Shown here one piece after another: positions 46,695 through 48,360 of a stretch of 64,000 nucleotides of DNA. The notes under the pieces were generated by a model. That model worked only from the letters and a program-made list of their open reading frames with translations, searched no databases and had not been told where the DNA came from. Position 1 is the first letter of the stretch. Every line of letters starts with the position of its first letter. Source of the DNA: Roseospira goensis (GTDB taxonomy: Bacteria; Pseudomonadota; Alphaproteobacteria; Rhodospirillales; Rhodospirillaceae); the NCBI RefSeq assembly GCF_014197795.1, contig NZ_JACIGI010000012.1, positions 1 through 64,000 of the forward strand, given 5' to 3'. A program made the translations under genes and the position numbers.

Positions 46695-46723
46695 TTGTGT
46701 GCCGATGCGGTCTGGACTATCCT
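46695..46723 (+). promoter_or_regulatory. Predicted sigma-70-type promoter for the caspase-like gene
   Basis: TTGTGT (46695-46700), 17-bp spacer, TATCCT (46718-46723). It lies in the 180-bp gap after the Nudix gene, about 100 bp ahead of the next start. Transcription would begin near 46730. Confidence 0.45.
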
Positions 46724-46822
46724 GATCCCTGCGTGTCGTGTCGCCCCGTGCGATGGCCCTCCGCCAGAGTCCGGGGCGGAGCGATGCGGGCTCTGTGGGC
46801 TCTGTGGGAACGGGGGCCAGCC

Positions 46823-47479
46823 ATGTACACGATCACCGAGCTGACGGCCGCGACGGCGCCGAAACGCCAAGACAAGACCAAATACGTCTTCTTCGCGCTG
46901 TACTATACGGTCGCCGACAATGCCTTTCAATACGCGGCCCGGACCTGGCTGGATGCGGTCAAGACTCAGCGGAGCTTCAAGGCGGGCACCGACGTTGAGG
47001 TCATGACCGCCTTCAAGACCGAGAAGGACTTCAAACAGGGCTGGGAGCAGGTCGACAAGACGTGCAAGACCGCCGCCGCCACGGTGGCCGCCGGCGCGGT
47101 GTTCTCCCACGCGTCCAAGCAGGAGGGTGGGGGCGATGGCCTGGAGTTCATTCCCGAGGGTTCGGACGGCACCCTGATCAAGACCGAGATCGCCGTTCTG
47201 CCCAAGCTGTCCTGGGCGGACGGGGCCTACCTCCTGCTGGCGAGCTGCAACTCCGGCCTGTCGGGCCAGCGCGGCTGGTCGCTGTCGAACCAGTTCGCCA
47301 AGCGGCAGGGTGTCGTCACCCTGGGACAGACGGGCTACGCCTATTTCTCGAAGAAGTGGGCCTCCTACGAAGAGAAGGGGACGAGCGACACCAAGATTGC
47401 CCTATGGGCCTATGCGCGCGGCAAGAACAGCCCCCTGGGGGGCGGCGGCCGCATGCTGGCGCAGGTCTCCAAGCCATGA
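46823..47479 (+). CDS. Caspase/CHAT-like (clan CD type) protein with putative His-Cys dyad
   Basis: A 218-aa soluble protein, not assigned to a named family by eye. The order of elements fits a caspase-like fold: strand KYVFFALYYTV, a helix with the KTEKDFKQGWEQVDKT region, strand AGAVFSHASK with candidate His96, then LSWADGAYLLLASCNSGLSG with candidate Cys142 in the typical L-L-x-A/S-C-x-S-G pattern. WSLSNQFAKRQGVVTLGQTG follows, like the CHAT/caspase segment after the cysteine. The start at 46823 is preceded by GGGGG at good spacing; an in-frame ATG at 46784 is possible. GC is lower than in the pdh genes. It overlaps the next gene by 4 bp. Confidence 0.55.
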   Translation: MYTITELTAATAPKRQDKTKYVFFALYYTVADNAFQYAARTWLDAVKTQRSFKAGTDVEVMTAFKTEKDFKQGWEQVDKTCKTAAATVAAGAVFSHASKQEGGGDGLEFIPEGSDGTLIKTEIAVLPKLSWADGAYLLLASCNSGLSGQRGWSLSNQFAKRQGVVTLGQTGYAYFSKKWASYEEKGTSDTKIALWAYARGKNSPLGGGGRMLAQVSKP

Positions 47480-47826
47480 CGGCCGTCCGCCTCGGGGCGG
47501 GGCTGTTGTGGCTGGCGGTGCTCGCCCTGGCGGCGGCGGAGCTGCTGCTGCTGGCCTGGTTCGGCTATCGCCTGGCGAGCTATCCCGAGAACCATCTCGG
47601 GTTCAGCCCGTACCTCGGCCTGGGGCTGGCCCTGCCCGGACTCGGTGCCGGTCTCCTCGGCCTGTTCGGTGCCCGCCTGGGCGCGCCGCGGTTGCGCCGC
47701 GTGGGGGCGGGCCTCGTGATCCTGTCCTTGGGTCTGGTGGCGGTGCTGGCTGCGTTCGACCGCTTCAACATCCTCATCGACTACGAAACCTGGCTTCAGC
47801 GTGGGATGCCGCCGCGGCCCTTCTGA
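47476..47826 (+). CDS. Small integral membrane protein paired with the caspase-like gene
   Basis: A 116-aa protein with three predicted membrane helices: about residues 7-29 (LGAGLLWLAVLALAAAELLL), 46-66 (YLGLGLALPGLGAGLLGLFG) and 76-96 (VGAGLVILSLGLVAVLAAFD). A short C-terminus follows (NILIDYETWLQRGMPPRPF). No family is recognised. Its ATG overlaps the stop of the caspase-like gene (ATGA), so the two are translationally coupled and probably act together at the membrane. The role is unknown. Confidence 0.6.
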   Translation: MTAVRLGAGLLWLAVLALAAAELLLLAWFGYRLASYPENHLGFSPYLGLGLALPGLGAGLLGLFGARLGAPRLRRVGAGLVILSLGLVAVLAAFDRFNILIDYETWLQRGMPPRPF

Positions 47827-47926: not shown

Positions 47927-48003
47927 CGGGGCGTAGCTCAGCCTGGTAGAGCGCTAGCTTTGGGAGCTAGATGCCGGAGGTTCGAATCCTCTCGCCCCGA
48001 CCA
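47927..48003 (+). tRNA. tRNA-Pro (anticodon TGG)
   Basis: A complete cloverleaf of 77 nt including encoded CCA: acceptor CGGGGCG/CGCCCCG, D-arm with TAGCTCAGCCTGGTAGAGCG, anticodon arm CTAGC-TTTGGGA-GCTAG giving TGG, T-arm with GGTTCGAATCC. The tRNA reads CCA (and with wobble other Pro codons). Confidence 0.97.
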
Positions 48004-48060
48004 GTCGGCCCGCGCCGCCCTGACGGCGGGCCGGTGCCGCGCGCAGGATCGAGGCAGACC

Positions 48061-48360
48061 ATGAGCAAGACCGTCCGTATCTTTCAGCCGGCCAAGTCCG
48101 CGATGCAGTCCGGGCGCGGCACCAGCCGCCAGTGGGTCCTGGAGTTCGAGCCCGACCAGCCGCAACGCAACGATGCCCTCATGGGCTGGGTCGGGCGCGG
48201 GGATACCGTCAATCAGCTTCGGCTGTACTTCCCGACCAAGCGCGAGGCCATCGCCCATGCCCAGCGCAACGGCTGGGCGGTGCGGGTGCACGAGCCGGCG
48301 AAACGGCGCTGGCGGCCGAAGAGCTACGCCGAGAACTTCGCCTACAACAAGGTGACCTGA
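48061..48360 (+). CDS. NDUFS4-like accessory subunit of respiratory complex I
   Basis: A 99-aa protein of the ETC complex I subunit conserved-region family (NDUFS4/18-kDa type), present in mitochondria and alphaproteobacteria. Family landmarks are VRIFQPAKSAMQSGRGTSRQ, WVLEFEPDQP, LMGWVGRGDTVNQLRLYFPT, and C-terminal RWRPKSYAENFAYNK. It would bind the peripheral arm of NADH dehydrogenase. It lies 57 bp after the tRNA gene. Confidence 0.92.
   Translation: MSKTVRIFQPAKSAMQSGRGTSRQWVLEFEPDQPQRNDALMGWVGRGDTVNQLRLYFPTKREAIAHAQRNGWAVRVHEPAKRRWRPKSYAENFAYNKVT

Follow-up and report, generated by a model that had tools for sequence, protein, structure and literature searches.

A predicted CHAT-type protease and a three-helix membrane protein of Roseospira goensis as a candidate mobile type VI effector-immunity cassette

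The first 64,000 nucleotides of contig NZ_JACIGI010000012.1 of Roseospira goensis (hereafter the window, meaning this whole stretch of DNA) carry two overlapping genes on the forward strand: gene 1 (46823-47479), encoding a putative cysteine protease of 218 residues, and gene 2 (47476-47826), encoding a membrane protein of 116 residues. The reading that we favour, and that is rather probable, is that the pair represents a mobile type VI effector-immunity cassette composed of a CHAT-type protease and a membrane immunity protein. Under this reading, the product of gene 1 would be a cysteine protease of minimal CHAT type (clan CD, with a caspase fold) that uses His96 and Cys142 as its dyad. The type VI secretion system (T6SS) would take it as a cargo effector, in some hosts by means of a dedicated PAAR protein, and would inject it into an adjacent cell, probably into its periplasm. 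Gene 2 would encode the cognate immunity protein, which would sit in the inner membrane with three helices and bind the effector through two conserved parts exposed to the periplasm, the first loop and the C-terminal tail. The caspase-type fold is supported by computation, and proteolysis, injection, periplasmic action and neutralisation are what we infer.

The pair had been singled out in a preliminary description made from the letters of the window, which read gene 1 as a caspase- or CHAT-like protein with candidate residues His96, in the motif FSHAS, and Cys142, in the motif LLLASCNSG. Both open reading frames (ORFs) are indeed there as claimed, and so are the His96 codon (47108-47110), the Cys142 codon (47246-47248) and the ATGA overlap in which gene 1 stops and gene 2 starts (47476-47479), all on the forward strand. 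Four members of the gene-1 family were found, namely the window copy and relatives on a contig of an Acidobacteria metagenome-assembled genome (MAG; locus L002), on plasmid p2_010062 of Acinetobacter wuhouensis (L004) and on a 4.4-kb IMG/VR contig that represents an Acinetobacter-like prophage fragment (L007). Their alignment has 55 invariant columns, which include the putative catalytic His96 and the putative nucleophile Cys142, both conserved in four out of four members. Since the two Acinetobacter-type copies are close to each other, the family would amount to about three independent sequences.

A relation to the CHAT family (PF12770) emerges from several comparisons. Pfam reports a CHAT match in the L002 relative at 14.8 bits, below the cut-off of 24, and none in the other three members. 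When the gene-1 profile was compared with a CHAT profile by hhalign, the score was 43.6 over a match of 31 columns only, while the best of 200 shuffles reached 25.5 and none reached 43.6. The CHAT profile was built from 25 of 30 CHAT loci, the others being dropped for an internal stop (one), a partial sequence (one), no usable frame (one) or a missing C[NED][TS][AG] pattern (two). The last filter biases the comparison toward a match at the cysteine, whereas the shuffles and the motif DGxL..E[IV] are independent of it. This motif occurs in 22 of the 25 CHAT domains and is fitted by DGTLIKTEI in gene 1 (residues 115-123; 47165-47191, forward strand). The His-Cys distance in the CHAT domains is 45-62 in 18 and 82 in 7 of the 25. 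Gene 1 and CHAT thus share a histidine of the ATHG/SHA type, the DGxL..E[IV] motif and a cysteine of the LSACNTG type, in the same order and with similar spacing; they differ in that the gene-1 family stays under the Pfam cut-off and has neither TPR nor other extra domains. Overall, the profile comparison supports a distant relation to CHAT and not membership by the curated Pfam cut-off.

The predicted structure of gene 1 points in the same direction. The model is of low-to-medium confidence, and 45 of 50 among the PDB matches listed are caspases, metacaspases or MALT1; in it, His96 directly follows a strand at residues 86-95 and Cys142 directly follows a strand at residues 131-141. Because of the sub-threshold CHAT match in one relative, the profile match beyond the shuffles and a model with mostly caspase matches, a caspase-type (clan CD) fold is very likely, and the fold first suggested for gene 1 is supported. 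In sequence databases the proteins were otherwise silent: neither window protein matched NCBIfam, where the L002 relative of gene 1 had a single weak match (0.047) far below the cut-off; PDB searches by sequence and by profile returned nothing; and a PHROGs search with the four gene-1 members gave weak matches only (best E-value 0.18). Pfam matches of gene 1 to OprB (0.023) and Arnt_C (0.12) lie below the cut-off and were taken as noise.

The second element of the cassette is the constant partner of the first. An ORF for a membrane protein similar to gene 2 follows gene 1 in all four loci found, so that the proposed linkage is borne out. Fold, conservation of His96 and Cys142 and linkage were checks proposed in the preliminary description itself, and none of the three went against it. 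In the Acidobacteria MAG, the gene-1 relative has 47% identity over 216 residues, and the end of its gene is overlapped by that of a 110-residue membrane protein, which shares 36% identity with gene 2 over 89 residues (E-value 3e-11 in a single comparison); this adjacency of relatives of both genes, along with the invariant His96 and Cys142, places the pair beyond chance. In the A. wuhouensis plasmid, the gene-1 relative is 37% identical over residues 20-215, an annotated PAAR gene precedes it with a 4-base overlap, and a 103-residue membrane ORF, missing from the incomplete gene table, follows it. In the prophage fragment, PAAR, gene 1 and gene 2 (169, 235 and 104 residues) form a cassette at 1298-2809 of that contig, with a terminase-like gene on one side and head-tail-joining and portal genes on the other. 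Parts of the flanks have 64-69% identity to phage terminase, head-tail-joining or portal genes among the matches listed, the portal gene matches TIGR01539, and the last 127 bases match insertion sequence-type transposase genes in Acinetobacter phage records. The order PAAR, protease and membrane protein in a prophage-like fragment resembles phage-borne T6SS cargo.

The link to type VI secretion comes from these PAAR genes (PF05488, above the cut-off), which lie directly 5' of the pair in two of the four loci, L004 and L007, and are absent beside it in the window and in L002. After the PAAR motif, the PAAR proteins (L007 1298-1804; L004 3661-4158) carry about 90 extra residues, perhaps a cargo-binding domain. 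A transthyretin-like character of this part, as in VgrG, was considered from the look of the sequence and is not claimed. A PDB sequence search with the L007 PAAR protein gave no match, and the same query hit 4 of 378 genomes, where no search named a gene-1 relative downstream, the ORFs there being listed and not family-searched. A check for a T6SS covered the window's genome and the Acidobacteria MAG. The former has a single PAAR match, on its contig C30, which also carries Pfam matches to PP2C, ImpA_N (TssA), VipA (TssB), VipB (TssC), gp25 (TssE) and TssF; the PAAR search of the MAG was without match. TssC is matched twice in each of the two genomes; as a base rate, 18 of 199 genomes of the window's order have TssC, four of them from its genus and its own genome included. 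With these data, it appears likely that gene 1 serves as T6SS cargo.

The two TssC-type genes of the window's genome are adjacent in the T6SS cluster of contig C30 (19523-22697, corresponding to L014 4523-7697), and paired adjacent TssC matches occur likewise in three congeners (G002, G003 and G005). Further along the contig (36448-37678; L015 6448-7678) there are two small ORFs, of which the second contains the lipase-like string SFRGTDD and has no Pfam match; they are possibly a broken effector gene.

The features of gene 2 bear on where the protease would act. The three hydrophobic helices first noted in it were found again as hydropathy peaks at residues 8-26, 47-65 and 76-94, and the membrane partners have in common an NH pair in loop 1 and the pattern FN[IV]....Y..W..R..P near the C-terminal end. 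Across the four copies, the N-terminus plus loop 2 have net charges of +5, +3, +8 and +7, and loop 1 plus the tail of 0, +1, +2 and +1. Since the former regions are more positive than the latter, an orientation with the N-terminus inside and the C-terminus outside is favoured in all four copies, which would expose the NH and FN...P parts, both conserved, to the periplasm. A point weighing against this reading is that the tail of gene 2 is itself basic, with 3-4 basic residues. As for gene 1, no stretch reaches membrane strength (maximum hydropathy 1.14 over 19 residues). Taken together, the lack of a visible leader in the effector, the PAAR gene and the conserved periplasmic faces of the partner suggest an injected toxin that acts in the periplasm and an immunity protein of the inner membrane. 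The same logic was used in a T6SS screen, where a periplasmic effector was argued from a periplasm-facing membrane immunity protein (PMC11148199). On this basis, gene 2 may well be an immunity protein, and the chances that gene 1 acts in the periplasm appear evenly balanced.

The preliminary description had suggested a different function for the pair, that of a cell-death or defence module with gene 2 as the membrane effector. Acting on its own cell, the protease of such a module would cleave gene 2 and thereby convert it to a pore or a disruptor of the membrane. This is in line with the caspase-type fold, with the translational overlap between the two genes and with the habit of known CHAT and caspase-like proteases of pairing with membrane-active partners. 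The search of both proteins against PADLOC (2023 version), however, returned no family at E-values up to 10, and the Pfam search of gene 2 was without match; the partners in L002 and L007 had sub-cut-off Pfam matches only, none of them to gasdermins (best DUF5336, 0.012; a viral NSm model, 0.096). Moreover, the recurring neighbours, in two of four loci, are PAAR genes and not defence genes; the prediction for gene 2 places its conserved parts in the periplasm, out of reach of a leaderless protease that stays in the cytoplasm; and the L002 and window copies sit among ordinary metabolic genes, as read from the ORFs. An injected effector with its immunity protein fits better than a self-acting protease and pore because of the missing PADLOC and Pfam matches, the recurrence of PAAR, the charge pattern of gene 2 and the lack of a hydrophobic leader in gene 1, so that the defence function is unlikely.

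The roles within the cassette could also be reversed: gene 2 would then act as the toxin, a small peptide-like effector that inserts into membranes, and gene 1 would serve as its processing protease, its chaperone or an adaptor to the PAAR spike. The gene order PAAR, protease, membrane protein is compatible with it, and caspase-like domains have been described as toxin-releasing peptidases (PMC3482391). The three-helix layout of gene 2 and its last position, both usual for immunity genes, speak for the opposite assignment, as does the better conservation of gene 1 (47% against 36% for gene 2 in the comparison with L002), making a toxic gene 2 improbable.

The distribution of the family is that of a rare and patchy element. 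Searches for relatives returned one locus each from genome contigs (L002), plasmids (L004) and viral contigs (L007); other queries found no additional member in viral contigs or plasmids, and none was found in the phage collection. Whole-genome searches covered 99 relatives, with 6 congeners among them, 385 genomes of the class and 398 of the phylum, three samples that overlap, and the window's genome was the only one to match; likewise, the MAG itself was the only match among 199 genomes of its phylum. This very patchy spread is also what speaks against a non-toxic regulatory or housekeeping protease pair, for which the PAAR linkage of the Acinetobacter copies would be accidental. Two of the four loci, lying among metabolic genes without PAAR, are what such a pair would look like; the plasmid and prophage-fragment copies, however, both keep the three-gene order, and a housekeeping function is thus very unlikely.

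The site of the pair in the window adds to this picture. The pair lies just 5' of a tRNA-Pro(TGG) that is followed by a gene at 48061-48360, and the tRNA and this gene (window 47927-48360) occur together in all seven genomes of the genus. On the 5' side of the tRNA, searches for the pair, the NUDIX gene, pdhB and pdhC came back empty in all five congeners read; in the sixth, the contig ends at the tRNA. Of the six congeners, two have NUDIX relatives, and the pair and a tRNA are absent from both 1.5-kb flanks. That congeners lack the pair at this side of the tRNA, and that copies exist in a plasmid and a prophage, indicates horizontal movement of the pair. Window 47927-48360 marks a rearrangement-prone spot, its 5' side being unlike the window in all five congeners read. 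The gene at 48061-48360, for which the NCBIfam search gave no match, we take to be a complex I subunit. The L002 pair lies between nuoF-like and nuoG-like genes, as read from the ORFs (L002 1-5101), so that a complex I neighbourhood would be common to both copies, which may be a coincidence.

Two other claims about the locus concern a promoter and the GC content. A promoter of its own had been proposed for the pair in the string TTGTGT-N17-TATCCT (46695-46723, forward strand). The string is present, and the window has no second exact copy of it. However, its hexamers agree with the sigma-70 consensus at only 3 and 4 of 6 bases and it is absent from the output of a promoter scan, so that it is weak and a promoter role is not supported. 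A GC content lower than that of the pdh genes holds for gene 1 (0.645, against 0.70 for pdhB and 0.74 for pdhC) and not for gene 2, which has 0.712 where the window has 0.716; at third positions, both genes have a GC of 0.89.

VgrG2b is reportedly a metalloprotease effector of the T6SS, and bacterial gasdermin operons carry caspase-like or CHAT proteases. Like the latter, the present pair encodes a caspase-type protease beside a membrane or membrane-acting protein; it differs in that the product of gene 2, which lacks a Pfam match, is an integral membrane protein of three helices and in that PAAR genes, not defence genes, recur.

Closer comparisons come from polymorphic toxins and from T6SS effectors. 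Tox-Caspase domains (Zhang et al. 2012; PMC3482391) were predicted to act as toxins or as releasing peptidases, with the T6SS among their export routes and Imm36 as immunity protein. They share with gene 1 a caspase-like His/Cys domain and possibly the route. Tox-Caspase is, however, a domain inside larger toxins, whereas gene 1 stands alone, with a separate PAAR gene in two loci; its partner Imm36 is soluble and BH3703-like, whereas gene 2 is without Pfam match and is predicted to span the membrane with three helices. VgrG2b apart, the T6SS protease effectors encountered in the literature are papain-like, namely Cpe1, TsaP and EvpQ, described together with the immunity protein Cpi1 (PMC12136450). 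They resemble gene 1 as small cysteine-protease effectors with a cognate immunity gene, and they differ in having a papain fold and cytoplasmic substrates, GyrB and ParE, where gene 1 has a predicted caspase-type fold and an integral membrane partner. In Bacteroides fragilis, CHAT proteins near T6SS effectors were taken for possible immunity proteins (PMC11854122). The main texts of a structural screen of T6SS pairs and of a T6SS review contain neither "caspase" nor "CHAT". In the literature on the T6SS with caspase, CHAT, clan CD or PAAR, no CHAT-type T6SS effector of this kind was met; most subscription papers fall outside this search, and novelty is unproven.

A more general proposal, which we put forward tentatively and at less than even odds, is that the pair belongs to a family of T6SS effectors in which a stand-alone caspase/CHAT protease would act in the periplasm of rivals, hence the three-helix membrane immunity protein, and that the cassette would cross from one phylum to another, accompanied in some hosts by a PAAR loader of its own and consisting of just the two genes in others. 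For the annotation of defence islands, the pair serves as a warning that a caspase-like gene beside a membrane gene is not necessarily a self-killing module. If the proposal is true, it would raise the question of the periplasmic substrate of gene 1, and a caspase-type protease used as an interbacterial weapon would tie a cell-death protease fold to bacterial competition.
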